The notes beneath the pieces were generated by a model that was not told the origin of the DNA, made no database searches, and worked only from the letters and a program-made list of their open reading frames with translations. A DNA stretch of 64,000 nucleotides from NCBI RefSeq assembly GCF_012932215.1, contig NZ_CP048788.1, positions 2,232,001 through 2,296,000 of the forward strand, given 5' to 3'. Below, piece after piece: positions 6,801-23,574 of this stretch (position 1 is its first letter; the number at the start of each line of letters is the position of its first letter). The stretch comes from Roseobacter ponti (GTDB lineage: Bacteria; Pseudomonadota; Alphaproteobacteria; Rhodobacterales; Rhodobacteraceae). The position numbers were made by a program, and so were the translations under genes.

Positions 6801-8372
6801 GGCCAGCGGCGTCACACGCCCCCTGACCTTCACATCCACCGAACCGCCCAGAGACCGGCCCGCGAGTGCTTCGAAGCGCCCGATGTTTCCCGCAGACACC
6901 GCGAGATTCAGCGTGGTGGGAAAACCGTTCTGCAGCCCTTCGACGGTGATTTCACCCCCAAGGCCATAGTCGGCACCGGTGATATTGAGGGCAACAACCT
7001 CAATCGGGCCGTCTTCGATATAATCAATGCTGGCCCGGCCGGTGATGCGATCGCCAAGAGCGCGCGCTACCGAAGGATCGGTCATTTCCACCTCGGTCGC
7101 CGTGAACTCAAGATCAGTGAAGAGCTCACCGATGCTGCCCGGGGCGGCATCCAGCGATCCGTCCAGCGTCAGCTGCGTACGGCCGATGCTGATCTCATCC
7201 CGTGCAAGGCTCAGGATATCGAAAACGCCCAGCAGCGCGTTATCCTGTGCGGCGTCGAAATCGACACTCAGCTTTACATCGCCGACGGTCATGCCGTCGC
7301 CCGAGCCCGGCAGCAGAACCGGCTCGCCTTCCCGGAAAATGCGCCCGTCGATATCGATAAAGGCAGGCCATTTGTCTGAGTTCAGCCGCACACTGCCATC
7401 GAGTGATACGGACTCCGCACCAAAGGAAAAGGCGCTGACATCAATCTCGCCACCGGCGGCAAGCACCGTATCGGCCACAAAGCTGATATCCGATCCGAAA
7501 AACTCCCAGTATTCTTCGGGAATAAGCGGCCGCACGTCACCGCTGATTTCGGCCAGCACACGGCGATCCGGCGTATCGTCCGTGCCTGTTCCTTCCAGGG
7601 CGGCGAGGGAAACAGCACCCGTCAGGCGGGGCTGATCAGCCGTGGTCAGGGCGATGTCCGCAGTGAAATCATCCAGCGGCCCCTCGCCTTTCACAGCCAG
7701 ATAGACGGTCGGTCTGTCCGGCAGGTTCAGCGTATTGGCGACAAGACCATCCTCGCCCTCGTCAATTTCGATATCCACCGAGATCGCTTCGTTTTCGCGC
7801 AGAAAACTGGCGCGGATCACAAATTCGCCCTGTGCGTCGTCGATCCTGTCAGCCGTCAGATCAATCACCGCGCCCTCATCGTCAAGCTTTGCTGCGGCAC
7901 GCAGGTTCAGTTCGGCCGCAATGCCCATCACCTCTTCGCCCAGCGAAATACGCCCGATCTCAAAATCCGCGATGTTCACACTGACCGGCAGCTCCGGCAG
8001 GGCAAATCCGGAAGCCTCGGCATCCGGAACCTCGATGGTTTCAACCGGGTCCGGCAGACGTGGAATTTCAAGCGTCGCGGCGGTCAGGCTCTGGACCTGA
8101 AGCCGTCCGCGCAGCAGCGCGGTGCGCTGCCAGTTCAGCGTCACATCCCTGAGGATCAGCCAGTCGCCTGAAGGGTCGGAGATGGTCATGACGTCAAAGC
8201 TGGCCTCGGAGCTCAGCGCGCCGGAAAAGCCGCGGATGGTGACATCACGTCCTTCGCCGGACAAAAGGTCTTCGATGGTGCGCTCAAGAAAGCTGCCGCC
8301 GTCTTCATCCTGTGCTGCGACGGTAAAGGTCAGAGCAGCCAGAAACGCGAAGGTGAATACCAGAAGCCTCAA
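3870..8372 (-). CDS. tamB: Translocation and assembly module subunit TamB
   Basis: 1500 residues. An N-terminal signal/anchor (MRLLVFTFAFLAALTFTVAA) is followed by a long beta-rich, repeat-containing periplasmic region and a C-terminal DUF490-type domain with the sequences VRGRGVNAELGGSLEITGN and GRLDIIAKRFDLDEGTIDFQG that mark TamB. TamB spans the periplasm and works with TamA in outer-membrane protein assembly and/or phospholipid transport to the outer membrane. Its ATG overlaps the tamA stop by 4 bases, showing translational coupling. Unusually, residues 644-1063 consist of seven identical-length 60-residue repeats (listed separately). Stop-to-stop convergence with the flavin reductase gene leaves 6 bases. 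Confidence 0.93.
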   Translation of the reverse strand: MRLLVFTFAFLAALTFTVAAQDEDGGSFLERTIEDLLSGEGRDVTIRGFSGALSSEASFDVMTISDPSGDWLILRDVTLNWQRTALLRGRLQVQSLTAATLEIPRLPDPVETIEVPDAEASGFALPELPVSVNIADFEIGRISLGEEVMGIAAELNLRAAAKLDDEGAVIDLTADRIDDAQGEFVIRASFLRENEAISVDIEIDEGEDGLVANTLNLPDRPTVYLAVKGEGPLDDFTADIALTTADQPRLTGAVSLAALEGTGTDDTPDRRVLAEISGDVRPLIPEEYWEFFGSDISFVADTVLAAGGEIDVSAFSFGAESVSLDGSVRLNSDKWPAFIDIDGRIFREGEPVLLPGSGDGMTVGDVKLSVDFDAAQDNALLGVFDILSLARDEISIGRTQLTLDGSLDAAPGSIGELFTDLEFTATEVEMTDPSVARALGDRITGRASIDYIEDGPIEVVALNITGADYGLGGEITVEGLQNGFPTTLNLAVSAGNIGRFEALAGRSLGGSVDVKVRGRVTPLAGTFDLNVAGTTEDIAVDIPQADAVLTGLTELSVTAVRDDTGTFVRDLVLKNDALDVTADVALDPGESVVTARAALADIGLVLPQYEGAVVFDGSASENANGWRVDADLDAPYDGTLSVAGLATGPDADLRIDLNLPDVAPLVPDITGSLSANGRVWQSPEGYRVDFAAAGPYEAEIAAEGLATGPDADVGLRISVPDLEPLVPDITGALRADGRVFQSPEGYRVEFEADGPYAARAAIEGLATGPDADLDIALSLPDLQPLVPSVSGPVDAEARVWQTPGGYRVDVEADGPYAAKVAVEGLATGPDADLNIALSLPDVQPLLPSVTGPVDADARVWQTPDGYRVDVTADGPYRAKAAVEGLATGPDADLDITVSLPDVQPLVPSVSGPLAADARVWQTETGYRVDVTADGPYEAKAAIKGLATGPDTDLTVAVSVPEVKPLLAAVSGPAQADARLWLTEDGYRVDLDADGPDGVNALVSGLATGPDADLAFEAAIPDLSVLVPELPGPFDVAGTARRQSEGWQIDTSANGPAGSNAVVAGLVRENGNLDLTASGSAPLGLSQPFLAPRSLLGQARFDLAVDGPPALSSVTGRIETSDARFSAPNLRIGLEDLRTTIALNGGSARIDAETRVAAGGRIVVNGGVNLSSLAADLSIGLRGAVLTDPRLYTTTLNGDVTVNGPLTGGARIDGTINIDGVDVTVPSTGVTSIGAIPDIRHIGATAPVNRTRARAGVIPQETTARSGAGPAYPLSIRVNAPSQIFVRGRGVNAELGGSLEITGNTNNIISAGSFDLIRGRLDIIAKRFDLDEGTIDFQGSLVPYIRFVSTTEIPDGTGSIIIEGPADALEFEFTSNPEYPPDEVLSLIIFGRYVSEISGFQALQLANGIAELTGRGGVGVFGRLRTGIGLDELDVSTSESGDTKVTAGKYLTDDIYTDVSASAEDGTDISINIDLTDALKGRATVGSEGQSSIGLFFERDY
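5184..6443 (-). repeat. Seven tandem 180-bp (60-residue) repeats inside tamB
   Basis: The DNA shows a motif encoding GLATGPDAD recurring at exactly 180-base spacing, seven times without a single insertion or deletion. Each 60-residue unit reads approximately GLATGPDADLxIxLSLPDxx, PLVPSVSGPxxADARVWQTP, xGYRVDVxADGPYxAKAAVE. The middle copies (units 3-5) are nearly identical and the outer copies (1, 2, 6, 7) more diverged, as expected for expansion by unequal exchange from the centre. The repeats fall in the beta-taco body of TamB, so copy number would set the length of the periplasmic groove. Confidence 0.95.
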
Positions 8373-10204
8373 AACGATTGTCCTATGCCGATGTAAACCT
8401 GAAAAGAGGCCGCGTCCTGATCGCCGGACACCACAGTTGCAACGTCAAAGCGGATGGGGCCGATCGGCGTGTCATAGCGGACGCCCAGACCTGCGCCGGA
8501 CTGCCATTCGCCCGACCCGTCCGGGAAAGCCTCGGCCCCGATATAGCCTGCGTCGAAAAAGCCGACGAGCCCCAGGGCACCACTGGTGCGGTAGCGGACT
8601 TCGGCCTGCAGGCCGATGAAGGACCGGCCACCTGCAATCTGGCCACCGCCCAGATCCACACCGAGCGATTCAAAATCATGACCGCGCACGGTGCCACCGC
8701 CGCCGGAATAGAACAGAAAATCGGCCGGCGCATCGGCAAGCGAGGGCCCGGCGACCGATCCGAGCTGCCCGCGCAGGGCAAGCGTGGTACTGCCGAACGT
8801 TCTGTATCCGCGCAGGTCAACCTCGGAGAGCAGGCCGTTGTCTGTGCCATCAATGGCCAGAAAAGGCGTCAGGCCGAGGTCGAGATAATATCCGCGCCGC
8901 GCATCCAGTTCACTGTCGCGATAGTCGAAGTTCAGCCCGGTGGGCACCATAAAGATCAGATAGCTGCTCTCTCCGAAAACATCGCGCGTGTTTGCACGCT
9001 GGAACGCTCCGCCGAAGCGATATTTGCGCTGGTCGGAGGCAAAGCGTTCAATACCCGCGCCGATCGTCGCCTGGCGCGAGAAATAGTTCACAGAATCAAT
9101 CTGTTCGATCTCTGCAAGCAGGTAAAGATCAGTGTCTTCGTTAAAGGTCGCGGGCCGCTGATACCGCACCCCGAGCGAGTAATCGATGCCCCCTGTGTCG
9201 CCCCCGATGCCCGAGACTTCGGCATCAAAGCGCAGCCGTTCCGCACCGCCGAAATAGTTGCGGTGCAGCCAGTAGGCAGACAGCGAGACGCCCTCTTCGG
9301 TGCCAAGCTCTCCGCCGAACCCGAAGCGGCGCGGCTTGGCCTCTGCCACCCGCGCGGTGATGGGCAGCGTATCGCCCGGACCGGGCTGTTCGGCCTCGAT
9401 CATCGCGACAGCGCCAAAGGCCCCGGACCGGCGCAGACGCCCGGCGGCATCGTTCAGCTCATCAGGGGAAAAGTCTTCTCCCACCGGCAGGCCGGCAATC
9501 TCTAATATCCGCTCGGTCCGTACCGCTTCATTGCCGCGTACGGTCAGCGGGCCAAAGCGCAGCTTTGGTCCCGGTGTCAGGGTCAGATCTACGTCGATCC
9601 GTTCTTCCCTGTGGCGCGCGGTGATCTTTTGTTGCGTCAGCGTGGCTTTCGCGTGGCCCGCGTCGCGCCAGCCACCGACACCGGCGGCGGCAGCGCCGCT
9701 GATCTGGCTCAGTCGGGCAGGCTCGCCGCTGCGAAAGCCCTCGGGCAGTTCTGTTTCAGGCGCCAGCGGGTCTATTTCTGTCTTGCCAAAGCGAAAAGCG
9801 GTGCCCGGCTGAACGGTGATCACCGCCCTGCTGATTGACGCGGGCGGGTTCACGATCTGTATGCCCGTTGCTTCTCGCCCGTCTATTCGAATTTCAATGA
9901 CCGGGCTGAAATATCCCTGATCATAAAGGATCGCCAGCAGGCGCTTGTAGTCGGCCTGGGCAACCGAAACGATTTCCTGCGGGCGCACCGGCGGCGCGTC
10001 GTCGTCATCCCCGGACGCGGCTTCCGCCTGCTCAAAAAGCAGTGAGCCGTTTTCCAGCGTTTCGCGCAAATCGTCATCCAGAGGTCCGGTCAGCGAAACC
10101 TCGAGTGCGGATGCTGCCTGTGCCTGCAGCGCCAGCCAGAAAGCAACGGAAGAAAATCCGGCCGCACGGCGCAGATATGTCCTGCTCAGATACCTGAAAT
10201 ACAT
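8369..10204 (-). CDS. tamA: Autotransporter/translocation assembly outer-membrane protein TamA (Omp85 family)
   Basis: 611 residues with signal peptide (hydrophobic segment ending near AASALEVSL). Periplasmic POTRA-like modules occupy roughly residues 35-290, including LRFGPLTVRGNEAVRTERIL, the typical POTRA strand-helix start. The C-terminal half is a 16-strand Omp85 barrel: GGGGTVRGHDFESLG contains the VRGH/F lid-lock motif, and the last residues QVYIGIGQSF end with a terminal Phe typical of barrel proteins recognised by BAM. It is translated just before tamB with a 4-base overlap. Together they form the TAM complex linking inner and outer membranes. A GGGGGAAG RBS lies right before the ATG. 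Confidence 0.93.
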   Translation of the reverse strand: MYFRYLSRTYLRRAAGFSSVAFWLALQAQAASALEVSLTGPLDDDLRETLENGSLLFEQAEAASGDDDDAPPVRPQEIVSVAQADYKRLLAILYDQGYFSPVIEIRIDGREATGIQIVNPPASISRAVITVQPGTAFRFGKTEIDPLAPETELPEGFRSGEPARLSQISGAAAAGVGGWRDAGHAKATLTQQKITARHREERIDVDLTLTPGPKLRFGPLTVRGNEAVRTERILEIAGLPVGEDFSPDELNDAAGRLRRSGAFGAVAMIEAEQPGPGDTLPITARVAEAKPRRFGFGGELGTEEGVSLSAYWLHRNYFGGAERLRFDAEVSGIGGDTGGIDYSLGVRYQRPATFNEDTDLYLLAEIEQIDSVNYFSRQATIGAGIERFASDQRKYRFGGAFQRANTRDVFGESSYLIFMVPTGLNFDYRDSELDARRGYYLDLGLTPFLAIDGTDNGLLSEVDLRGYRTFGSTTLALRGQLGSVAGPSLADAPADFLFYSGGGGTVRGHDFESLGVDLGGGQIAGGRSFIGLQAEVRYRTSGALGLVGFFDAGYIGAEAFPDGSGEWQSGAGLGVRYDTPIGPIRFDVATVVSGDQDAASFQVYIGIGQSF

Positions 10205-10358: not shown

Positions 10359-12029
10359 TCAGGGCAGATTGTGATGAACAGCCCCGGTTTCATCGTTTTT
10401 GCGTGCAATGCAGACCTGCCATGGACCCAGATGCAGACGATTCTCTGCGCCGGGCCGTGCGCCGCCAAGTTCGGCACCGATTGTTTCCCAGTCGCCGGGC
10501 GGCAGCGCATGCATCGAGGGGGTGTCGGACATATTAAATGCACAGAAAAGCGTCTGATCGGCGGAGCGGCGGGTAAAATGCAGCACATCACCATAGGCGA
10601 AGACACCGTTATGACTGCCGTGGCGCAGTGCCGGGTTTGCTTTGCGGAAAGCAATGGCAGCGCGGTAGTGATGCAGGATTGATCCCGGAGCGCGCTCCTG
10701 TTCCTCAACGGCCCTGCTGAGATGGCTGTGGGCCACCGGCAGCCACGGATTATGGTCGGTAAACCCACCGTTCTGGTCATCTGCGACCCAGACCATCGGC
10801 GTGCGACAGCCGTCGCGGCCCCTGAACTCCGGCCAGAATTCAATGCCGTAGGGATCCTGCAGATCTTCAAAAGGCACATCTGCCTCGGGCAGCCCAAGCT
10901 CCTCTCCCTGATAAAGACAGGCAGACCCCGGCAGGCACATCAGTAAGGTTGCATGCAACCGGCGCGCCGCCGGGCTGAGATCCCAGCGGGTGCTGTGACG
11001 CGTAACATCATGGTTAGAGAAGGCCCAGGCCGCCCAGCCATGCCGCGCGACCCGGCTCAGCTCATCAAAGACCTGCGCAACCCCGGTCGCCGTCAGGCGG
11101 TCGGGCGCCAGAAACTCAAAGCCATAGCACATATGCACGCCGTCTTTACCGCTGGTGTACTGCCCCAGCAGCTCAAGGCCACGGCGTCCGTCTCCTACTT
11201 CGCCCAGTGATGTGATGCCATCGTATTCATCAAGCAACCGACGGAAACGCGCCAGAAAAGCAAGGTTTTCGGGCCGGTTGCGCGAATAGATATGATCCTG
11301 ATGATTGTAGGGGTTCACGCTGGGCGCTATTTTTGCCGTGCGCTCTTCGGGCGGCAGCGGCGGGTTATCGCGCAACTCATTATCGTGGAAATAGAAATTG
11401 ATTGTGTCCAGACGAAAGCCGTCCACCCCCCGGTCCAGCCAAAAGCGCGTCACGCCCAGAAGCGCGTTCTGCACATCCTCGCTGTGCAGATTAAGATCGG
11501 GCTGTGAGGTCAGGAAATTGTGCAGGAAATACTGTTCGCGGCGCGGGTCCCACTGCCAGGCCGTGCCGCCAAAGATCGACAGCCAGTTGTTGGGTGCCGT
11601 GCCATCCGGTTTCGGGTCTGCCCAGACGTACCAGTTGCTGCGCGGCCCCTCACGACTGCTGCGGCTTTCGGTAAACCAGGGATGAATATCCGACGTATGC
11701 GACAGCACCAGATCGATCATCACCTTTAAACCGTGCTCGTGGGCTGTCTCGACCAGTGTGTCAAAATCAGCAAGCGTGCCGAACATCGGGTCGACATCGC
11801 AGTAATCGCTGACGTCGTAGCCGAAATCCTTCATAGGCGAAGTGAAAAACGGCGAGATCCAGACCGCATCAACGCCCAGCCCTGCGACATAGGGGATGCG
11901 GCTGACGATCCCGGCTAGATCGCCGATGCCATCGCCGTTGCTGTCCTGAAAACTGCGGGGATAGATCTGGTAAATAGTACAACCGCGCCACCAGTCGTCG
12001 GGCGCGGTTGCAGGGTCTGTATCGATCAT
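10359..12029 (-). CDS. GH13 alpha-glucosidase (oligo-1,6-glucosidase type)
   Basis: 556 residues, family GH13, probably cytoplasmic as no signal peptide is visible. The start WWRGCTIYQIYPRSFQDSNG is the classic GH13_23/AglA N-terminus. Catalytic residues are all present: nucleophile Asp208 (GFRLDTINFY), acid/base Glu277 (SLGEVGD) and the transition-state Asp341 (FSNHD). It would hydrolyse alpha-1,4/1,6-linked glucosides or sucrose-like substrates. It is a close paralogue of the second GH13 gene at 30296-31963 but sits outside the transporter operon, immediately downstream of galU on the same strand. Its location next to galU and the ggpS operon raises the possibility of a role in compatible-solute turnover, which is inference only. 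Confidence 0.9.
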   Translation of the reverse strand: MIDTDPATAPDDWWRGCTIYQIYPRSFQDSNGDGIGDLAGIVSRIPYVAGLGVDAVWISPFFTSPMKDFGYDVSDYCDVDPMFGTLADFDTLVETAHEHGLKVMIDLVLSHTSDIHPWFTESRSSREGPRSNWYVWADPKPDGTAPNNWLSIFGGTAWQWDPRREQYFLHNFLTSQPDLNLHSEDVQNALLGVTRFWLDRGVDGFRLDTINFYFHDNELRDNPPLPPEERTAKIAPSVNPYNHQDHIYSRNRPENLAFLARFRRLLDEYDGITSLGEVGDGRRGLELLGQYTSGKDGVHMCYGFEFLAPDRLTATGVAQVFDELSRVARHGWAAWAFSNHDVTRHSTRWDLSPAARRLHATLLMCLPGSACLYQGEELGLPEADVPFEDLQDPYGIEFWPEFRGRDGCRTPMVWVADDQNGGFTDHNPWLPVAHSHLSRAVEEQERAPGSILHHYRAAIAFRKANPALRHGSHNGVFAYGDVLHFTRRSADQTLFCAFNMSDTPSMHALPPGDWETIGAELGGARPGAENRLHLGPWQVCIARKNDETGAVHHNLP

Positions 12030-12096: not shown

Positions 12097-12993
12097 TCAG
12101 GCAACTTCGGCAGTGTGAAACGATGCGACGAAATCGTCGATCACCGCATCAAACTCAGGGTCCTGGCGGGCGAGGTGCAGTTCAGCAGCCAGCATCCCGG
12201 CTTTGGAGCCGCAGTCAAAGCGTATTCCCTCAAAACGGAACCCCGCAAGCCCGGTGGTCTCAATGCCCCGCGCAATGGCGTCGGTAAGCTGAATTTCACC
12301 CCCGGCCCCCGGTTCCTGTGAGCGGAGCGTTTCAAAAATACTGCCGTCGAGCACATAACGGCCCACGGCCGCTGTGGTGGACGGTGCCTCTTCGGCGGCA
12401 GGCTTTTCAACCATCCGGTCTGCATAGGCGAAAGGCCCGTCGCGGCGCGCCACAGAGAGAATACCATAGCTGGAAACGGCCTCACGCGGAACTTCCATAG
12501 TTGCCACCATATGGCCGGCCTCGGACGTGTTGTAAGCCTCGATCATCTGGGTCAGGCAGCCGGTTTTTCCGAGGATCAGATCGTCCGGCAGAATGACGGC
12601 CACTGCGCCCGGGAGCGCGTGTTCGGCGGCACAGAGGATCGCGTGGCCAAGGCCCAGCGGCTCGTCCTGCATTACAAATATGACGTCGTGATCATCCTCA
12701 TCAATTGCTGCTTTCCGGAGTCGGTCCGCAAGTCTCGCCTTGCCCCGTTCTTTCAGCGTGGCGCGTAATTCTGCATCATCGAGAACATGGTGCTCAATAG
12801 CGTCTTTCGAGGGGTGGCTGACGAAAATCATGCGCTCAACCCCGGCCGCCTGCGCCTCTTCAATCGCATACTGAATGAGCGGTGTGTCCAGAACCGGCAA
12901 AAGCTCTTTGGGCACCGATTTGGTCGCTGGCATGAACCGTGTTCCAAGACCTGCTACCGGAAAAATCGCTGTTCTCACATTCTGGTCTGTCAC
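12097..12993 (-). CDS. galU: UTP--glucose-1-phosphate uridylyltransferase
   Basis: 298 residues, the normal GalU length. The nucleotide-binding start AIFPVAGLGTRFMPATKSVP with KELLPVLDTPLIQYAIEEA is diagnostic. It makes UDP-glucose from glucose-1-phosphate and UTP in the cytoplasm, feeding polysaccharide, glycolipid and possibly osmolyte synthesis. The GTG start (revcomp of 12991-12993) is preceded by AAGGAG seven bases upstream, which supports it. It is divergent from the gpsA-HAD-ggpS operon across a 471-base region and is followed 67 bases later by the GH13 gene, so the two may be cotranscribed. Confidence 0.95.
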   Translation of the reverse strand: MTDQNVRTAIFPVAGLGTRFMPATKSVPKELLPVLDTPLIQYAIEEAQAAGVERMIFVSHPSKDAIEHHVLDDAELRATLKERGKARLADRLRKAAIDEDDHDVIFVMQDEPLGLGHAILCAAEHALPGAVAVILPDDLILGKTGCLTQMIEAYNTSEAGHMVATMEVPREAVSSYGILSVARRDGPFAYADRMVEKPAAEEAPSTTAAVGRYVLDGSIFETLRSQEPGAGGEIQLTDAIARGIETTGLAGFRFEGIRFDCGSKAGMLAAELHLARQDPEFDAVIDDFVASFHTAEVA

Positions 12994-13464
12994 TTACTCG
13001 CTCCTTGTTATTGCTGCGACGCAGCGCCTGCCTTTAAGTTAGGAATAATCGGTTCAATGTCAAAAAAACGACATTTTGGATTTTCCGAATTCAGCTCATA
13101 CTCCACTACGGAGTCTGTCGGATCTTAAAAACGCATTCCCGCGATTGCGTGTCCACAAAACAATGGATTTTTGGCAGAAACTGATCGCTGCCGTACCTCA
13201 TTGCACCAGTACATCGTCTGAACCCCTGTTCTGGTTCCACGGAATCTGCCTCCGGCGGCAAATTTATTATTTCAGCATTTCCGATGTCAGATGCCTGCTT
13301 TTTAAGCATCTGGCGAAAATCTTCGAGGCAGGAATGCCGGTTTGCGACCTCACACCTTGATGCGGCGTCGAATGTGTTTAGCTCAGGCTGAACGGAACTT
13401 TTGCACTGCAGCGATGTTTGTGACCAGTGCGATCGGGGAAAGCGCACAAATCTGAGGAACAGCG
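12994..13464. other. 471-base divergent promoter region between galU and the glucosylglycerol operon
   Basis: No credible gene: the open frames on either strand have unusual composition and no family resemblance. The segment is visibly more A/T-rich than its surroundings. It must contain the promoters of galU and of gpsA-HAD-ggpS. I see no clear hairpin or riboswitch architecture. A GAGGA ribosome binding stretch precedes the gpsA ATG. Confidence 0.5.
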
Positions 13465-14595
13465 ATGACCAGAACAGGTAATTCATCTTCATCCGCACCC
13501 AAGACAGCGCCTTATGACCGGATTGCCGTAATCGGGTCCGGGGCCTGGGGCACGGCACTCGCCAATGTGGCTGCGGTGGCGGGCCGGCAGGTACGCATCT
13601 ACGGACGCAACAGAGAGACGGTCGATGCGATCAATAACGTGCATCAGAATACCACGTATCTGCCGGACGTGCCGCTCGCTCCTTCTCTGAGCGCCACCAC
13701 GCAGATGTCCCAGGCGCTCACCGGCGCCGACGCCGTGATCATGGTCGTGCCCTCGGGCGCCGTACGCAAGGTTGCCGCTGAAGTGAATAATTTCATCCCG
13801 CCTGGCGTCCCCGTCGCGGTCTGTACCAAGGGGATCGAGCCCGGCAGCGGGTTGCTGATGTCTCAGGTCGCGCATGAAGAGCTCGGACACGTTCCCGTCG
13901 GCACAATCTCCGGGCCGACATTCGCGCGCGAGACCGCACTCGGACACCCGACGGCGGCAACGGTCGCGTTCGAATTCAGCCACCAGGACCGGCTTGATCC
14001 CTATGCGAGCCCTGCTGCGCGCATGGCGCTTTCGATGAGCACCGGATCCTTCAAAACCTATATCTCTGATGATCTGATCGGGGTTGAAATCGGCGGCGCT
14101 GTAAAGAACGTGATCGCGATCGGCTGCGGCATGATGACGGGGGCCGGCTTTGCCGAAAATACCCGCGCGGCGCTGATCACCCGGGGCATATACGAAATGA
14201 AGGTGCTTGCCGAAGCACTTGGCGGGCGGCGGGAAACTGTCACCGGGCTTGCCGGGGCCGGAGATCTGACGCTCACCTGTTCGAGCCAGACGTCGCGCAA
14301 TATGTCGCTTGGCGTGCAGCTTGGTCAGGGACGCAGGCGCGCCGACTGTTTCGACGGACGCGCGGTTGTGGTCGAGGGCGAGGCCAATGCCCGCTCGATT
14401 GTCGACCTGGCGCGACGTGTTAACGTGTCGATGCCGATCTGTGAAACGGTCGACGCCATCCTGCACGATGGCGCGGAACTGAACGAGGCTTTTGCCGCAC
14501 TCTGGACACGCCCCATTGAGGGCGAGCCGCGCACGCTCGACATTTCGTTGCGCAATCCGGCCCGGCCAAGCCTCAGCAATCTGAACGGAGAGTGA
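13465..14595 (+). CDS. gpsA: NAD(P)-dependent glycerol-3-phosphate dehydrogenase, operon-specific GpsA paralogue
   Basis: 376 residues, slightly longer than the usual 330-340 because of an N-terminal extension of about 18 residues and a longer tail. The Rossmann motif IAVIGSGAWGTALAN, the CTKGIE segment, and the catalytic-lysine segment GGAVKNVIAIGCGM are all present, so the enzyme should reduce dihydroxyacetone phosphate to sn-glycerol-3-phosphate. It is the first gene of a three-gene operon (1-base and 3-base gaps), in which glycerol-3-phosphate is exactly the acceptor needed by the third gene product. This context suggests it serves osmolyte synthesis rather than phospholipid synthesis; a second housekeeping gpsA is expected elsewhere in the genome. 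Confidence 0.9.
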   Translation: MTRTGNSSSSAPKTAPYDRIAVIGSGAWGTALANVAAVAGRQVRIYGRNRETVDAINNVHQNTTYLPDVPLAPSLSATTQMSQALTGADAVIMVVPSGAVRKVAAEVNNFIPPGVPVAVCTKGIEPGSGLLMSQVAHEELGHVPVGTISGPTFARETALGHPTAATVAFEFSHQDRLDPYASPAARMALSMSTGSFKTYISDDLIGVEIGGAVKNVIAIGCGMMTGAGFAENTRAALITRGIYEMKVLAEALGGRRETVTGLAGAGDLTLTCSSQTSRNMSLGVQLGQGRRRADCFDGRAVVVEGEANARSIVDLARRVNVSMPICETVDAILHDGAELNEAFAALWTRPIEGEPRTLDISLRNPARPSLSNLNGE

Positions 14596-14596
14596 T

Positions 14597-15358
14597 GTGA
14601 GTACCGATCTATCCGGACACCGGTTTGTCCTGGCGACAGATCTCGACGGAACATTCCTTGGCGGCAGTAAGGCCGACCGGGCGCGGCTTTATGACTGGAT
14701 CGAGGATAACCGCGCCAGCGTCGGCCTGATCTTTGTCAGCGGCCGGGATCCGGAGTTTATCCACCAGCTGTGCGGCAGCGGTGTGCCCTGGCCCGATTAT
14801 GTGATCGGTGACGTCGGTACCACCATTGCCCGTGTCACTTCCGGCCGAGAGATCGCGCCGATCGAAGCACTTGAAGAAGACATCGCATCACGCTGGAAAG
14901 ACAGTGGAAAAAAAGTGCGAGAAGCTCTCGACGGACACCCCGGTCTTGAGGTGCAGCCAACAGGTTTCCGTTACCGGGTCAGTTACGACTACGACCCTGA
15001 GCGTTTTGACCCTTCGGCAAAAGATAAAATCGAAGCGATGGGTCTTGATGTGCTGATTTCGGACAACCGCTTCTTTGACGTGCTGCCCGGTGGGGTGAGC
15101 AAGGGGCCGTCTTTGCTGCGTCTGCTGAGCCATCTGGATATCGCAACAGGTGACGTCCTTGCGGCGGGTGATACGCTTAACGATCTGTCGATGCTGGTGG
15201 CCGGCACCCCGGCGGTTGCAGTTGGCGGATCAGAAAAACCGCTGCTTGATGCGCTGCCCGAGGCGGACCGTATCTTCCGCGCCGGGGATATAGGAGCGGG
15301 TGGTATTCTGGAGGCAGTGCGCTATTTTAACCTGCATGCCGCACCGGAAAAGGTCTGA
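14597..15358 (+). CDS. HAD-IIB family phosphatase, probable glucosylglycerol-phosphate phosphatase
   Basis: 253 residues, GTG start one base after the gpsA stop. HAD motifs are intact: motif I LATDLDGTFLGG (nucleophile Asp and DxDGT), motif II VSGR, the lysine in GVSKGPSLL, and motif IV GDTLNDLSML. The overall pattern is HAD-IIB, resembling sucrose-phosphate phosphatase and the phosphatase domain of the fused GgpPS enzymes of some gammaproteobacteria. It does not resemble the longer cyanobacterial GgpP/StpA. Placed directly before ggpS, it most likely removes phosphate from glucosylglycerol-phosphate in the cytoplasm. Sucrose- or trehalose-phosphate phosphatase activity is the alternative; the assignment rests on context. 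Confidence 0.8.
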   Translation: MSTDLSGHRFVLATDLDGTFLGGSKADRARLYDWIEDNRASVGLIFVSGRDPEFIHQLCGSGVPWPDYVIGDVGTTIARVTSGREIAPIEALEEDIASRWKDSGKKVREALDGHPGLEVQPTGFRYRVSYDYDPERFDPSAKDKIEAMGLDVLISDNRFFDVLPGGVSKGPSLLRLLSHLDIATGDVLAAGDTLNDLSMLVAGTPAVAVGGSEKPLLDALPEADRIFRAGDIGAGGILEAVRYFNLHAAPEKV

Positions 15359-15361
15359 CCC

Positions 15362-16876
15362 ATGCCCTCCGATCTTGTGATCGTCTACCACCGTCAACCC
15401 TATGAAGAAGTCGAGGAAAACGGCAAAACCGTTTTTCGTGAAAACAAGAGCCCCAACGGCATTGTCCCGACGCTAAAAAGCTTTTTCGGCACGGCAGAGC
15501 ACGCATCCTGGATCGCCTGGAAGCTGGCCAAAGACCCGTCAAACCCGGAATTCGACAAGGTAGTGGAAATTTCTGATGTGCACGGCGACTACACCGTGTC
15601 CCGCCTGCCGCTGACGCATGAGCAGGTCAGCAGCTTTTATCATGTCTCCTCGAAAGAGGCTTTCTGGCCGATCCTGCACAGCTTTAAAGAGAAATTTAAC
15701 TATGATCCTGTGGACTGGCCGACGTTCCGTGAAGTGAACTGGGCGTTTGCCGAAGCAGCCGCACGCGAGGCGGCACAGGGCGCGCGCGTATGGGTGCATG
15801 ACTACAATCTCTGGCTGGTGCCCGGGTATCTGCGCCAGCTACGCTCGGACGTGACGATCTCGTTTTTCCACCACACGCCTTTTCCGGCTGCGGATATGTT
15901 CAACGTGCTGCCCTGGCGGCGCGAAATCGTCAAAAGCCTTCTCGACTGTGACATCGTGGGATTTCACATTCCGCGCTATGCCGCCAATTTCGTCTCTGTC
16001 GCGCGCAGTATGTTCGATGTCGATGTGCTGCGCCGTGAAGCCGTGGGAGATGATCTGATTTCGGACGGTACCGCGCTCAGTGAACGCAGCGCACCGGTGC
16101 TGATCGGTTTTGAAGGCCGCGAGATATCAATCAGCTCATCCGCTGTGGGCGTCTCAACCGGATTTATCGAAGACCGCGCGACCGACCCCAAGGTGATAGC
16201 TGCCGCCAAAGAGGTGCGCGAAGGCCTCGGGGACTGCCGGCTGATCCTCTCGGTGGGCAGAACCGATTATACCAAGGGCGGCGTGGACCAGCTCGAAAGC
16301 TTTGAGCGGGTTCTGGACGATCATCCTGAACTGCGCGGTACGGTTAAGCTCATGCATGTGTCGGTCAGCGCTGATCGCAACATGTCGGCTTATGCCCGCA
16401 CGCAGACCGGGATCGAAGAAACCGCAGGTCGCATCAACGGTCGTTTCGGCACACTTGAATGGCAGCCTATCGCGTTGATTTCAAGAGCAATTCCGTTTGA
16501 CGACCTGATTAAATATTACCTCGCAGCGGATGTCGCCTGGATCACGCCGCTCGTGGACGGGATGAACCTTGTCTGTAAGGAGTATGTCGCTGCCCGTACG
16601 GATGGCGACGGTGTACTGGTGCTGTCGGAATTCGCCGGTGCTGCGGTTGAACTTAATTCGGCCGTGGTGACCAACCCGTTTTCACACCGGTCTATGGATC
16701 AGGCGATCCTGCAGGCGCTGGACATGCCCGAAGAAGAGCGTCGTTCCCGCATGGCGGAACTGCGCCGGGTGGTGAAGCTTTATTCAGTCGCGTCCTGGGG
16801 TGAAGAACAGCAGCGACAGTTTGATGATGCTCTGGCGCGTAAAGCCGTGAAGAGTGCGGCGACAGAATCCGCGTAA
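15362..16876 (+). CDS. ggpS: Glucosylglycerol-phosphate synthase (GT20)
   Basis: 504 residues, family GT20. Unlike OtsA trehalose-phosphate synthases, the N-terminus reads [12 protein letters not shown] followed by [20 protein letters not shown], which closely follows the N-terminus of cyanobacterial GgpS. Conserved GT20 residues remain: [17 protein letters not shown], the donor-phosphate Arg/Lys in GRTDYTKGG, and [12 protein letters not shown]. The enzyme would transfer glucose from a nucleotide sugar (ADP-glucose in cyanobacteria) to glycerol-3-phosphate, giving 2-O-alpha-glucosylglycerol-phosphate, an osmolyte precursor. The upstream gpsA and phosphatase genes complete the pathway. Trehalose-6-phosphate synthase is the main alternative call, made less likely by the acceptor-side N-terminus and by the gpsA neighbour. 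Confidence 0.87.
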
Positions 16877-16907: not shown

Positions 16908-19900
16908 TCAGACAGTCGCACCGTCCGAGGCCGTAACAACCACATCACTGTCAATCGCCAGAGTGGCGAGCACTTCCCCGGCACCGCCCACATACTGATA
17001 GATGGTAAGCGCGTTGCCGTCAGCATCAGTGACCCCGGGACCTGCAACCTGGTTCAGGGCATCGCCGGCTGCCACCTCAAAACTAACCGCATCACCGGCA
17101 TTGCCGAGGATCGTCGCACTTTCCGGCAGCGCCGCTGCGAGCAGGTCTTCAAGGCTTTCGTCGGCTGTGGAGGACAGATCGACCACATCCGCAAGTGACA
17201 GGGTGAGCGTATCGTTCTGGCCATTGTCCATATCGATCACTTCGATGTCTGTCAGGTCCAGACTGGCGAGAACCGCGTTGATGTCTCCCACATCGCCGAG
17301 AAAGAGCGTGTCGCGCCCTGCCCCGCCGTCAATGATTTCGGTGCCCGAGGGCGCATCGGTCACTTCGATGGTATCGTCACCCGCGCCCGCCAGGATCACG
17401 TCATCGCCGGTGCCGCCGTTGATCAGGTCATCACCGTCATAGCCGAGGATCACATCATTGCCGCCTGCGCCAGAAATGGTATCAGCCTGATCGCTGCCAA
17501 AGAGCAGGTCCGCACCGCTGAGCCCGGCGATGTCCTGCGCATCGGCGGCTTTGCCGATTTCATCTGACGAGAAGAGATCGATCTCAATCGTGTCGTCATT
17601 GCTGTCGGTGCTGAATTTCGCCCGCACGTTCACGCGGTTCACATCACCGAGAAGGGCCGCGATATTCTCGATCGAGGCAAGCGGCAGCTCATAGTCCACT
17701 CCTTCCACGATCAGTGCATCACTGGTCTCATCTGCAATTATCTGTACCGGCCCGCCGTCCACCTCAAGTTCGACCTCAAGCGAGACAAGCTGCGGATTGA
17801 AGAGCGCCGTATCAAGCAGCCCTTCGGTCAGCTGGTCGGGAGATGACAGTTCCTGCGCGCCGGGGTCCACCAGCAGCAGTTCGTCAAAGACCACGTCGCC
17901 GATGCCAAAGGCATTGATGATGACCGGCTCTCGCCCGTCTGCCGGATTCCTGAGCGCGTCCACCGCAGATTCCCACCCGGCACTGTTCGGCTGACCGTCA
18001 GTGAAGAAAATCAGATAGTTCGTCTCAACCGCGGGCTCCGAAAGCAGGAAATCACCCGCTGTCAGCAGCGCATCCTTCCAGTTCGTGCCGACCCCCAGAT
18101 AGGGCAGCGTGCTGACGGCCCCGGGCAGCCCGGGATCATTCAGATCATAGATTGCCGTGGCCGTGCTGGTGGAGGAAAAGCTGATCAGCTGCACGTCGAC
18201 GGTGGTTGTCGACCCATCGAACTGATCGCGCAGAATGTCGACCGCGGATCCCACAGCGCCGAGAAGGGATTCCCAGTCCGCAGGCGAAATGCTGCCCGAG
18301 CTGTCGAGCACAAAGACCACGTTCACCGCATTCGTCGCCGCCGTCTCCACCACGTCAATGGCCACGGCACCGGCTGCTGTTTCGGCTGTCGCACCGGTGC
18401 TCAGACCAATGGATACATTATCGTCCCCCGAGGCATCGCTGTTTTCGACAACAATATCGAGCCGCGCCGTCGAGACCCCGCCGGCGCCGTCATCCACCTG
18501 ATATGTGATGCGTTCGATCCCGAGAAAACCAGGATCGGGTGTGTAAGAGAAAATGCCGTCCGGCGACAATGTGACCGTGCCGTCATCGGGGCCGATTGTG
18601 ACGCTGAAAGTCAGCGTGCCGGCGCCATCAACGTCCGATGCCGTCAGCGTGCCGCCGATGGCCTCTCCGTCCACGGTTTCAAAGACAGATACCGGGACGA
18701 GTTCGGGCGTGTCATTGGTGCCGGTGATCACGACGCTGACAGTCTCGGTGACCTGCTGACCGGTGATATCTGTGGCCAAAGCCGTCAGGGTTTCGGTCAC
18801 GGTCTCGCCCAGATCAAGTGGATCGGCTGCGAGGTTGTCGAGCGTGTAGCTCCAGGTGCCGTCTGCCAGCAGCGTAAAGCTGCCATAGGCCACGGCAACG
18901 GCGCCCACGGACCAGACCGCCGACCCGCCGGTATCGGGATCAGTCGCGGTGATCTGACCTGAGACGGTGACATCCTCACTGCCTTCGGGCACGGCACCGC
19001 TGGCATCCGCTGCTGTGCTGGTAATCACGGGCAGATCATCGGTACCGGTCAGCGTGATCGTCACGACCTGATCAGCGGTCGCGCCGGTGTCGTCGGTCAC
19101 CGTAGCCGTATAGGTCTCGGTTACAACCTCACCACCGCCAAGGCTTACGGCCGCAACCGCATCAAGAGCATAGGTCCAGTCACCGTTCGCCGCGATGCTG
19201 AAACTGCCAAAGGCAGAGCTGCCCGCACCCGACCAGACGAGAACCGCATCCGCATCCGCATCTTCTGCGACCAGCGTGCCCTCTGCGATCACCGGACCCG
19301 CGCCATCTGTCAGCGCACCGGTCGTGGTGGAGGAGGTGACAACCACTACCGGTACATCCGGCAGCGCCGAGACAGTCACAGAAACCGTGGCATCGGCAAA
19401 ATCACCCGCCGGGTCAGTGACCCGTACCGTAAAGCTGTCGGTGCCCGCGAAATCGGCATCCGGCGTGTAAGAGTACGTGCCGTCAGTCTGCAGCGCGACC
19501 GCACCGTTCGACGGTGTTGCGGTGATGGAGAAAGTCAGCAGATCGCCATCAATATCGCTGGCTGCGATCACGCCGATCACGGCATTGTCTTCTGAGACGC
19601 CGGTGCTCTGATCGGTGGTCTGCGGCGCGTCATTGACGGGCAGAACAGTGACGATCACAAACCCCTCGACCGCCCCGCCCGCCGCGTCGGTGGCCGTTAC
19701 CGTGAAGGTGTCCGTACCGTTGAAATCCGGGTCCGGAACAAAATCAAAGGTGCCGTCAGGGTTCAGCGAGGCAGTACCGTTACCCGGTGCGCTGGTGATG
19801 GCAAAGGTCACCCCCGCGACACCGCCACTGATAACAGAAACACTCCCGGTGATGGCTGCGGCAGCCGTTGCGTCCTCCGGCCCTGAAACCAGGATAACGG

Positions 19901-21074
19901 GCGGCTCAGAGGGCTCCTCAAGCAGATTGAGGCCCTCGTCAAACGGGGTGAAGTCTTCGGCGTCGTCGCCCTGGATGTCGGGCGGTTGTTCGATGGTGTC
20001 GGCTTCATCAATGGAATCAACTTCCAGATCCGTGCCCGCGCCGCCGCCGTCGGAGCCGGTCGCAGACTGCCCGCCGGCATCCCCGAGCGACACAAAAGTA
20101 TCGCCTGCCTCAACCCGGTTCACAGCACTTCGGAAGGCGGCGAAGGCTTCGGCAATCAGGAGGTTGTCGCTGGCATCATCATCGAGTGTGCGCGGCACTT
20201 CCCGGCTTTCGCCGTTGCTCGACACCAGCCATTTGACGTCCGTTCCGCTGATGTTGGCCAGCAGATTGCCCTGAAGATCAAAGACTTCAATCTGGCCCAC
20301 ATCACCGTCCGGGTCGCGGGTCAGCGTGATTTCACTGGTCACGACGCCCGCGTCCGTGCCAACCGACACAAGCACCGTTGTTCCACGGATGCCCATGGTG
20401 GAAGAGGGCGTGCTGACTTCCATGCCGCCGGTTTTCGCCACCTGACCCGCGATGAAGACAAACCCGCCCTGAATAAGGCTGAAACTGCCGGAGTTGTCAT
20501 TGGCATCGGGATCAAAGATCAGCTCATCGATGACCATGCGCGACGCTGATGACAGCGTGAAAATGGTGCCGTCGACAAAGGTCACGGAGACCGAAGCGCC
20601 GTCACCCGTGATCAGTACATCCTGCTGGAAAACCTTGGTCCCGACCTGCAGTGTCTCGACGGTCCCGTCAGCGCGCTGCACTGTGGTCTCGCCCTCTGCC
20701 GTCTCGACCTGGCCGATTGCGGCTGCGGCCCCGGTCTGCGCGGCACCGGCCTGAGCATACTGTCCCGGCGTTAGGGGACCGGCGAGCAGTTCGACCAGAT
20801 CGCCGCGCAGCACAGCACCGTCAGGCGCAAAAAGACCGGCGGGCGGGGATGCGGCAAAATACCCGGGCAGATAAACATCCGGCACGCCATCATAGCTGAT
20901 GGTGAGGTCATTGCCACTGCGTGAAAACGCACCGCTGAAGAGCTGAGCGGCATCCGGCACGACGATGTGCCCGGACGCGTCCGGCTCCGGCGTCAGCGGC
21001 GCTGGTCCGCTCTGGATGTTTTCTGAAATCTGCAAAGACACGACGTTAATTCCCGGTTGCGTATTTTCAGACAT
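16908..21074 (-). CDS. Large FecR/Ig-like/VWA/RTX exported protein, probable type I secretion substrate
   Basis: About 1388 residues from ATG 21072-21074 (MSENTQPGINVVSLQIS); a GTG at 21113 would add 13 residues. Domains in order: a FecR-type domain around residues 140-245 (VTFVDGTIFTLSSASRMVID, STMGIRGTTVLVSV); cadherin/VCBS-like Ig modules around 390-880 (repeated FNGTDTFTVTATD, GDWTYALD, GTWSYTLDN units); a von Willebrand A domain around 915-1125 with full MIDAS (DSSGS, then a Thr in GVGTNWKDAL and Asp in FFTDGQ); and RTX nonapeptides around 1190-1245 (GGNDVILGYDGDD, GGTGDDVILAGAGDD). There is no Sec signal; the acidic, hydrophobic C-terminus fits a T1SS signal. A matching T1SS follows nearby, so it is probably a surface adhesin. 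Confidence 0.87.
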   Translation of the reverse strand: MSENTQPGINVVSLQISENIQSGPAPLTPEPDASGHIVVPDAAQLFSGAFSRSGNDLTISYDGVPDVYLPGYFAASPPAGLFAPDGAVLRGDLVELLAGPLTPGQYAQAGAAQTGAAAAIGQVETAEGETTVQRADGTVETLQVGTKVFQQDVLITGDGASVSVTFVDGTIFTLSSASRMVIDELIFDPDANDNSGSFSLIQGGFVFIAGQVAKTGGMEVSTPSSTMGIRGTTVLVSVGTDAGVVTSEITLTRDPDGDVGQIEVFDLQGNLLANISGTDVKWLVSSNGESREVPRTLDDDASDNLLIAEAFAAFRSAVNRVEAGDTFVSLGDAGGQSATGSDGGGAGTDLEVDSIDEADTIEQPPDIQGDDAEDFTPFDEGLNLLEEPSEPPVILVSGPEDATAAAAITGSVSVISGGVAGVTFAITSAPGNGTASLNPDGTFDFVPDPDFNGTDTFTVTATDAAGGAVEGFVIVTVLPVNDAPQTTDQSTGVSEDNAVIGVIAASDIDGDLLTFSITATPSNGAVALQTDGTYSYTPDADFAGTDSFTVRVTDPAGDFADATVSVTVSALPDVPVVVVTSSTTTGALTDGAGPVIAEGTLVAEDADADAVLVWSGAGSSAFGSFSIAANGDWTYALDAVAAVSLGGGEVVTETYTATVTDDTGATADQVVTITLTGTDDLPVITSTAADASGAVPEGSEDVTVSGQITATDPDTGGSAVWSVGAVAVAYGSFTLLADGTWSYTLDNLAADPLDLGETVTETLTALATDITGQQVTETVSVVITGTNDTPELVPVSVFETVDGEAIGGTLTASDVDGAGTLTFSVTIGPDDGTVTLSPDGIFSYTPDPGFLGIERITYQVDDGAGGVSTARLDIVVENSDASGDDNVSIGLSTGATAETAAGAVAIDVVETAATNAVNVVFVLDSSGSISPADWESLLGAVGSAVDILRDQFDGSTTTVDVQLISFSSTSTATAIYDLNDPGLPGAVSTLPYLGVGTNWKDALLTAGDFLLSEPAVETNYLIFFTDGQPNSAGWESAVDALRNPADGREPVIINAFGIGDVVFDELLLVDPGAQELSSPDQLTEGLLDTALFNPQLVSLEVELEVDGGPVQIIADETSDALIVEGVDYELPLASIENIAALLGDVNRVNVRAKFSTDSNDDTIEIDLFSSDEIGKAADAQDIAGLSGADLLFGSDQADTISGAGGNDVILGYDGDDLINGGTGDDVILAGAGDDTIEVTDAPSGTEIIDGGAGRDTLFLGDVGDINAVLASLDLTDIEVIDMDNGQNDTLTLSLADVVDLSSTADESLEDLLAAALPESATILGNAGDAVSFEVAAGDALNQVAGPGVTDADGNALTIYQYVGGAGEVLATLAIDSDVVVTASDGATV

Positions 21075-21264
21075 TTTTACTGATACACATCCGGTGCGTA
21101 TGTGAAGAACCACACACTACGCCCGATAAAAGACAAAAAAATGACATAATCTTACTGAAAGCAACATCTTACAGCATTTATTAACAAAATGGAAACAATG
21201 TGCTCTGTTTCGCAGGGTTGATCCTGGATGCGATTCAGTGCCTTAGTTGACGCAGGGGCAGCGA

Positions 21265-23574
21265 ATGCGTCGCTTACGCCCGGATATCATTGGCTTTTCG
21301 GGCCTTCAGGACAGGGCAGCCGTGCAGGAGTGGTTTTCAAAATGGCTCGGGTGGGTCCGTGTCGTTGCCTTTATCGGCCTGATCTTTGGTCTGGTGATTC
21401 GCGTCGGTGATCCCCAGGTGGTCGCCACCCTGCGAAATGCCGCTTTTGATTTCTACCACCAGTCCAAACCGCGTGAAATGGCCCCGCTGCCGGTTGCCAT
21501 CATCGATGTGGACGACAACAGCATTGACGAAATCGGCCAGTGGCCCTGGCCGCGGACGCGCATTGCTGAAATGGTCGATCTGGCCACGCAGGACGGCGTC
21601 GCCGCCATCGGTTTCGATATCGTGTTTTCCGAACCCGACCGGCTGTCGCCACCACAGATCGCCCGCGATAACCCCGATATGCCGCCCGCGCTGGCCTCCG
21701 GGCTGGCCGCTCTGCCGGAAAACGATGCTGTGCTCGCGGATGCCTTTGCCCGGTCACGGGTGATTGTCGGCCAGGCCACAGTCCGCACCCAGGCCGGTAA
21801 CCGCACGGAAAAACGCGAGATGACTGACCGGCCGCCTGCGCTGATCGGGCCGGATCCGGCGCCCTATCTGCTCAGTTTTCCGGATATCCTGCTGAACCTT
21901 CCCGCGCTGGAGCAGAACGCCTCGGGTCACGGTATGTTCGCCACCCGTCCGGATGCCGACGGGGTTTACCGGCGGGTGCCGCTGGTGATGCTGGTACAGG
22001 GCAGGATACGGCTCGGGCTTACACCGGAACTGCTGCGCGTGGCCACCGGTGGCGGAACATATGCGATCCGCACCAATGACGCCGGGATCGAGGGCGTTGT
22101 GCTCGCCCGCCAGCTGATCCCCACGGCGCAGGACGGTACGGTCTGGCCCTATCTCACGCCGTCGTCCCGGTCTCGCTATGTCCCGGCCGCTGATCTGCTG
22201 AACGGTCGCATGCCGCCCGGTCGCCTGTCCGGCCATCTCGTTCTCGTCGGCACTTCTGCGATCGGTCTTGAGGATTTTCGCGCCACGCCGCTGGGTGTGC
22301 CGATGGCCGGGGTCGAGATCCATGCTCAGGTGCTTGAAAACATCATGGCGAAAACACTGCTCAGCCGGCCGAATTACACCATCGCCGTCGAGCTCGTCAT
22401 CACATTCACGCTCTGTGCACTGGTGATCATCTTTGCACCCGGCCTTTCGGGGAGAGTGCTGATTTTCTCCTCTGTTCTGCTGCTCGGAGCCTATGTGGGC
22501 GCATCTTACTATATGTTCTGGGAAAACCGCATCCTGCTCGATCCGACCTTTCCGGTGCTTGCCACAACCACTGCCATCATGCTGATCTCGACCGTCAATT
22601 ACCTGCGCGAGGAACGTCAGCGTCAGCAGATCCGGAGCGCATTCGGGCAGTATGTATCGCCTGATCTGGTTGAACAGCTGAGCCAGAACCAGGGTCAGCT
22701 GACACTGGGCGGAGAGAGCCGCGATCTGACGCTGCTCTTCAGTGATGTGCGCGGTTTTACCGCAATTGCCGAAGGCTTCCGGGACAATCCCGAAGCGCTG
22801 ACCCTTCTGATGAACCGCTTTCTGACCATTCTGTCCCAGGCCATCATGGATCACAAAGGGACGATCGATAAGTTCATGGGCGACGCGGTCATGGCGTTCT
22901 GGAACGCACCGCTCGATAACCCCGATCACGCCCGCGAGGCCTGCCACGCGGCCCTGAGGATGATCGCAGATGTCGAAGCCTTCAACGCGCGGCGGATGAG
23001 CGAGAGCAGCGCGAAACGGGGACCCGGCAAAAAGAAACATCTGGCGGCCGAAGACGTGCAGCGGATAAATGTCGGCATCGGGATCAACACCGGCCAGTGC
23101 GTGGTCGGCAACATGGGCAGTGAGACCCGGTTTGACTATACCGCGCTCGGGGATCCGGTGAATGTGGCCTCAAGGCTTGAGGGCCAGTCGCGGTACTATG
23201 GCTGCCCGATCATACTCGGCCAGACCACAGCGAAAGAGGTTCGGGGCAGCTTTGCCGTGATGGAACTTGATGTGATCCGGGTGGTCGGCAAAGAGGTGCC
23301 GGAAAACATCTTTGGTCTGCTGGGTGATCAGCAGATGCAGAACGATCCGGCGTTCCTGCGCGCCTTTGGTCGCAACGGTCTGATGTTACAGGCTTACCGC
23401 GAGCAGAACTGGGATGCAGTGGAAGAAGCACTGCCGCGTCTGCGCGCTGAATTCCGCGCTCTGAGCATCGGCCTTGAGGATTACATCGAAATGTATGAAA
23501 GCCGGGTTGCCGATCTGCGTGCCGCCCCGCCCGGGCCTGACTGGGACGGTGTTTATGCCTCCACCCGCAAATAA
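21265..23574 (+). CDS. CHASE2-domain adenylate/guanylate cyclase (class III)
   Basis: 769 residues from ATG 21265, preferred over the TTG at 21247 because CAGGGGCAGCGA precedes it. An N-terminal membrane helix near residues 30-47 is followed by an extracytoplasmic CHASE2 domain (about 55-355, with VAIIDVDDNSIDEIGQWPWP and LVGTSAIGLEDFRATPL), then three membrane helices (about 375-455) and a class III cyclase domain (about 480-680). Metal ligands Asp494 (FSDVRGFT) and Asp540 (KFMGDAVMAFW) and the NVASRLEG catalytic segment are present, so it should be active. It is divergent from the FecR-domain exported protein gene. CHASE2 cyclases are often found near FecR proteins. It would make cAMP in response to an envelope signal. 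Confidence 0.92.
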   Translation: MRRLRPDIIGFSGLQDRAAVQEWFSKWLGWVRVVAFIGLIFGLVIRVGDPQVVATLRNAAFDFYHQSKPREMAPLPVAIIDVDDNSIDEIGQWPWPRTRIAEMVDLATQDGVAAIGFDIVFSEPDRLSPPQIARDNPDMPPALASGLAALPENDAVLADAFARSRVIVGQATVRTQAGNRTEKREMTDRPPALIGPDPAPYLLSFPDILLNLPALEQNASGHGMFATRPDADGVYRRVPLVMLVQGRIRLGLTPELLRVATGGGTYAIRTNDAGIEGVVLARQLIPTAQDGTVWPYLTPSSRSRYVPAADLLNGRMPPGRLSGHLVLVGTSAIGLEDFRATPLGVPMAGVEIHAQVLENIMAKTLLSRPNYTIAVELVITFTLCALVIIFAPGLSGRVLIFSSVLLLGAYVGASYYMFWENRILLDPTFPVLATTTAIMLISTVNYLREERQRQQIRSAFGQYVSPDLVEQLSQNQGQLTLGGESRDLTLLFSDVRGFTAIAEGFRDNPEALTLLMNRFLTILSQAIMDHKGTIDKFMGDAVMAFWNAPLDNPDHAREACHAALRMIADVEAFNARRMSESSAKRGPGKKKHLAAEDVQRINVGIGINTGQCVVGNMGSETRFDYTALGDPVNVASRLEGQSRYYGCPIILGQTTAKEVRGSFAVMELDVIRVVGKEVPENIFGLLGDQQMQNDPAFLRAFGRNGLMLQAYREQNWDAVEEALPRLRAEFRALSIGLEDYIEMYESRVADLRAAPPGPDWDGVYASTRK

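Follow-up and report, generated by a model that had tools for sequence, protein, structure and literature searches.

The 64,000-nucleotide window analysed here, taken from the Roseobacter ponti genome (contig NZ_CP048788.1, positions 2,232,001 to 2,296,000), holds a three-gene cassette that very probably makes the osmolyte glucosylglycerol. On the + strand, gpsA (13465..14595), encoding a 376-aa NAD(P)H-dependent glycerol-3-phosphate dehydrogenase, is followed by a gene for a 253-aa HAD phosphatase (14597..15358) and by a GT20 gene assigned as ggpS (15362..16876), whose 504-aa product is the predicted glucosylglycerol-phosphate synthase. The three open reading frames follow one another in the same direction, with 1 and 3 bases between them, just as the first-pass annotation of this DNA had described them. 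On the - strand and divergent from gpsA lies a galU paralogue (12097..12993), with a GH13 alpha-glucosidase-like gene (10359..12029) behind it on the same strand. The 471-base region between galU and gpsA (12994..13464) carries an inverted repeat, TGTC-N8-GACA (13058..13073, + strand).

A search of genome contigs returned at least 580 relatives, and the best 80 loci underlie all counts out of 80 given below. By record titles, about 64 of them belong to Rhodobacterales, 9 to Hoeflea and 7 to others. The HAD gene directly precedes the GT20 gene in 80/80 loci and gpsA directly precedes the HAD gene in 68/80, a gene order far outside chance. Across these loci, the conserved neighbours identified were the HAD gene, gpsA, galU and GH13; one more neighbour cluster, found in 16 loci at varied positions, looked ABC permease-like by eye.

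The GT20 protein scored 640 bits on the curated GgpS equivalog model TIGR02398 (cut-off 569) and 399 bits on the OtsA model TIGR02400, which is below the cut-off of 564.85. E. coli OtsA gave the opposite outcome, with 277 bits on the GgpS model and 610 on the OtsA model. Phylogeny had been proposed as the check on this assignment, with clustering with OtsA as the result that would speak against it, and such clustering was not seen: in a tree of 55 rows, the protein grouped with fused and unfused GgpS proteins and stood apart from the OtsA-like rows with 100/99 support (20 of the 80 relatives were sampled, GgpS rows were defined by model score, and E. coli OtsA was present twice). The N-terminus was also of the GgpS rather than the OtsA type, as the first-pass annotation had claimed. 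Indeed, [VL]YHR and SPNGI were present in 95/95 GgpS-type rows, whereas VSNR stood at the same place in 10/18 OtsA-like rows, namely the 10 with residues aligned there. The donor-site residues were conserved in both groups alike, so that the R. ponti enzyme shares these residues, as well as the GT20 family, with E. coli OtsA. In contrast, an arginine aligned with OtsA R300 was found in 18/18 OtsA-like rows and in 0/95 GgpS-type rows; we take R300 to be the number of this residue in OtsA and assume that it takes part in glucose-6-phosphate binding. This was the single GT20 found in the genome.

The HAD phosphatase matched PF05116 (sucrose-phosphatase-like, S6PP type) and PF08282, and these two alone; there was no match to PF09506, which we take to be the cyanobacterial GgpP (phosphatase) family. 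A PF09506 search of this genome likewise found nothing, and the control genomes gave no match either. The motif residues D15, D17, K169, D192 and D196 were present in 115/115 aligned rows, a few of these being copies of the window protein. Furthermore, 5 genomes from other classes encode an in-frame fusion with an S6PP-type HAD domain ahead of GgpS. The locus L091 of the alphaproteobacterium G016 was considered as a HAD-GgpS fusion and ruled out, since it consists of two genes in different frames. An S6PP-type HAD domain, the motif residues and a position beside or fused to GgpS are the features of the heterotroph-type GgpPS phosphatase, and all are found here. The adjacency to ggpS and the fusions suggest that the protein would act as the glucosylglycerol-phosphate phosphatase.

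The gpsA product matched Pfam families PF01210 and PF07479 and scored 364 bits on NF000942 (cut-off 257), which identifies it as a GpsA. A second GpsA, 38% identical to the linked one, is encoded elsewhere in the genome, and in a tree of 78 GpsA rows, 44 cassette and 34 other proteins fell on two sides of one branch, at a support of 96/79, short of the strongest. This second, distant copy and the tree position show that the linked gpsA is an additional gene with a lineage of its own. This lineage tracks ggpS. The GgpS cut-off was exceeded in 12/398 genomes of a phylum sample and in 16/90 of a family sample, with this genome in both; cassette-type gpsA, defined by 53% or more identity, occurred in 15 of the 90 family genomes, and 14 had both genes. 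G404 had cassette-type gpsA without ggpS, and G399 and G433 had ggpS without cassette-type gpsA. The cassette-type protein was the sole GpsA found in 5/15 genomes, yet 9/90 genomes showed no GpsA at all. Two loci, L176 (in G404) and L177 (in G493), have a gpsA of the cassette type but lack any ggp gene over the 14 kb examined; they are sisters in the tree, the cassette-type copy is the sole GpsA found in either genome, and it may have assumed a housekeeping role there. The idea that the linked GpsA has a feedback-resistance residue was abandoned, as the position considered, Ser255, misfitted the E. coli sequence and failed to separate the two GpsA types.

The galU paralogue stands divergently beside the cassette in 29/80 loci, at a distance of 179 to 815 bases between alignment ends. 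We compared 32 genomes searched with the window GalU, 16 with and 16 without linked galU, L055 standing outside this set. GalU of the linked type (63% or more identical) was present in 16/16 genomes with linked galU, R. ponti included, and each of these also had at least one other GalU copy, 47 to 51% identical. Among the 16 genomes without linked galU, the linked type was found in one (G499), where it was located elsewhere and was the sole copy found. In a GalU tree of 50 rows, 17 linked-type rows and the long-branch L202 (G514) formed a clade at 100/100 with a long stem. At L202, the diverged GalU adjoins a stretch that shares 25% identity with the N-terminal part of the GT20 protein, and this is perhaps another GT20-tied GalU. 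The window GalU retains the usual GalU motifs, and TIGR01099 was its best match, although it scored 271.9 bits there, under the cut-off of 326.8. Since the genome's other GalU copy passes this cut-off at 328.9, the specificity of the window copy may differ from that of the usual GalU. From its linkage and distribution, the linked galU is probably a dedicated source of UDP-glucose.

GH13 was found near the cassette in 6/80 loci, behind galU in L008, L010 and L011, opposite gpsA in L012 and L062, and downstream in L040. The closest solved structure to its product is the alpha-glucosidase 3wy1, presumably a Halomonas enzyme that glucosylates glycerol, and the gene may have a role in glucosylglycerol turnover.

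The region between galU and gpsA contains a conserved repeat. In 30 such gaps (the window and 29 loci), the best 10-mer occurred in 12, versus a maximum of 5 in 20 shuffles. The consensus is TGTCAAAAAACGACA, and the window form is one A longer than this 15-base form of the relatives. Allowing one mismatch at most, the 15-base form had 14 copies, in 13/79 loci, in the 47.4 kb of sequence ahead of the cassettes, whereas 981 kb of these loci outside the upstream regions had none; this comparison is somewhat biased toward the upstream regions, from which the consensus was derived. The count covers 79 loci, with L004 excluded because its contig starts inside gpsA; a close copy was absent from 66 of the 79. 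The galU start follows the repeat at a distance of 51 to 86 bases in 11 of the 13 loci. L012 is without galU and has the repeat 51 bases before GH13, and L014 has two copies and neither galU nor GH13. Read toward galU, the repeat includes TTGACA and may therefore act as an operator that overlaps a -35 box. A regulon sharing this repeat was sought and rejected, as a degenerate form gave 3 matches in the genome against 5 for the pattern read backwards. The 3 matches included the ggp site and one inside a short open reading frame between phaC-like and phaR-like frames (named by eye), and no further regulon sites in the genome could be named. A promoter and terminator consensus scan stayed at chance level.

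Taken together, the model scores, the GT20 tree, the R300 column, the linkage of the HAD gene and gpsA, the fusions, the co-occurrence of ggpS with gpsA and the parallel in Dinoroseobacter shibae described below argue for a glucosylglycerol module. The linked GpsA would convert dihydroxyacetone phosphate to glycerol-3-phosphate and so supply the acceptor, GgpS would transfer glucose from a nucleoside diphosphate glucose onto it, and the HAD phosphatase would remove the phosphate to yield glucosylglycerol. UDP-glucose for GgpS would probably come from the linked GalU, GH13 might break glucosylglycerol down, and the genes would presumably be induced by salt. That acceptor supply can limit such a pathway is shown by a cyanobacterium equipped with ggpP and ggpS, whose glucosylglycerol rose by 26 to 42% when genes for glycerol-3-phosphate dehydrogenase were added (PMC8168540).

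Several observations weigh against this reading. An arginine stands one residue past the R300 column in 74/95 GgpS-type rows, so the loss of R300 in these rows may be a shift, and the GT20 tree was built without any assayed or cyanobacterial GgpS. Also, gpsA was not found beside the HAD gene in 12/80 loci (in L013 the sequence begins too near the HAD gene to tell). Because 11 of these 12 genomes have the other GpsA type only and L052 has the cassette type elsewhere, the linked gpsA is favoured but dispensable. The earlier description of the dehydrogenase as dedicated and the module as self-contained has to be revised on account of these 12 loci, and because the module more completely takes in a dedicated galU and perhaps GH13. 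Finally, a paper on another organism names alpha-glucosylglycerate and alpha-glucosylglycerol together for D. shibae in the part available, so that the product in that species is not clear-cut (PMC9062515).

The GT20 enzyme could be a diverged trehalose-6-phosphate synthase with the HAD protein as trehalose-phosphate phosphatase, and both its family and its match to TIGR02400 fit, as do its best-matching solved structures, which are trehalose-phosphate synthases. That the protein nevertheless lies under the OtsA cut-off and over that of GgpS, is placed apart from the OtsA-like rows in the tree, lacks an R300 counterpart and is linked to gpsA makes this extremely unlikely. Alternatively, the acceptor could be 3-phosphoglycerate and the product glucosylglycerate. 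D. shibae, which has the same operon, is said to use alpha-glucosylglycerate/alpha-glucosylglycerol, with glucosylglycerate preferred when nitrogen is limiting (PMC9062515). The presence in the operon, in 68/80 loci, of a gene whose product makes glycerol-3-phosphate, together with a GT20 protein that passes the GgpS equivalog model, leaves this alternative very improbable.

The donor is a closer question. The product could be glucosylglycerol with ADP-glucose supplied by GlgC, as in Synechocystis, while galU serves, for example, surface polysaccharide. In its favour, glgC is present in the genome over its cut-off, divergent galU accompanies a minority of the loci, the linked GalU scores below its curated cut-off, and Synechocystis synthesis is described as strictly ADP-glucose dependent (PMC8168540). 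Against it stand the near-confinement of linked-type GalU to genomes with linked galU (16/16 versus 1/16), the fact that the linked GalU is an additional copy with a separate branch in the tree, and the conserved repeat between the two divergent units. We regard ADP-glucose as a serious possibility that stays below an even chance. The absence of glgC had been considered as proof of a UDP-glucose donor and was rejected, glgC being present. In the glucosylglycerol module, then, each of the two substrates seems to have a supplier of its own. This hints at UDP-glucose as the donor and, with glgC present, leaves room for ADP-glucose.

The first-pass annotation had placed the pathway in cyanobacteria and a few gammaproteobacteria. 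This is too narrow, as many Rhodobacterales and Hoeflea have the cassette, ggpS is annotated as such in D. shibae, and that species has already been said in print to use glucosylglycerol (PMC9062515). The three genes recur, with ggpS annotated, on the D. shibae plasmid pDSHI02 (NC_009956.1) and on a plasmid of Falsirhodobacter algicola. In D. shibae the order is also the same, the two GT20 proteins share 67.8% identity across 95% of the query, and both pass TIGR02398. However, its cassette is on a plasmid and no galU is among the annotated neighbours shown, whereas that of R. ponti is on the large contig, accompanied there by a divergent galU and by GH13. A gene table for Paraoceanicella profunda lists a glucosylglycerol-phosphate synthase (PMC7002103). 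The pathway and the three-gene cassette in alphaproteobacteria are therefore not new, being already visible in public annotation.

Two further systems invite comparison. As in the ggpPS fusions of the heterotrophs Stenotrophomonas, Pseudomonas, Azotobacter and Marinobacter (PMC10873239), an S6PP-type HAD domain precedes GgpS, but R. ponti has two separate genes with gpsA in front; the 5 fused genes seen here may or may not belong to those genera. With the cyanobacterial GgpS and GgpP (Synechocystis sll1566 and slr0746), R. ponti shares passage of the GgpS model, and in some cyanobacteria gpsA, along with glpD and glpK, is among the genes co-located with ggpS, as given in a figure legend (PMC6753628). 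It differs in its PF05116 phosphatase with no PF09506 match, and the Synechocystis donor is ADP-glucose. What is new here is the paralogous gpsA lineage that tracks ggpS, the probable dedicated galU and the conserved repeat, a variant worth testing. No description of a dedicated galU or of the repeat was found in the glucosylglycerol literature searched, to which subscription journals mostly did not belong and whose papers were available in part.

The host had been called heterotrophic, which is incomplete, as the second contig of the genome carries an adjacent pair of reaction-centre (PF00124) genes (C2, 21820-23504). This contig is about 101 kb long, so the photosynthesis genes may be plasmid-borne. 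An ectoine synthase is also present in the genome, and glucosylglycerol need therefore not be the sole osmolyte. Convergent with ggpS, the window encodes a 1401-aa protein (16908-21113, - strand) with FecR, cadherin-like/Big_9, VWA and RTX calcium-binding repeats, which has partial matches downstream of the cassette in close relatives. A CHASE2-adenylate/guanylate cyclase gene (21247-23574, + strand) is divergent from this large RTX-type gene, and the pair is kept together in L005, L006, L007, L009 and L016. On the far side of GH13, a 1500-aa open reading frame with internal near-repeats is followed by an Omp85/POTRA protein (3870-10204, - strand); these are probably a TamB-TamA pair, with TamB named by eye.

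A broader interpretation of the locus is a two-sided module with its own operator, in which dedicated GalU and GpsA would feed a GgpS that has shifted from ADP-glucose to UDP-glucose, the osmolyte would be uncoupled from the glycogen precursor, and GH13 would recycle it. We put this forward tentatively, as a proposal whose chance falls just short of even. Most discussion of glucosylglycerol treats it as an osmolyte of cyanobacteria. Since the cassette is conserved across marine Rhodobacterales, many bacteria of the ocean may produce it at no cost in nitrogen. Because galU and gpsA are present in dedicated copies, both the choice of donor and the supply of precursors can be tested directly.

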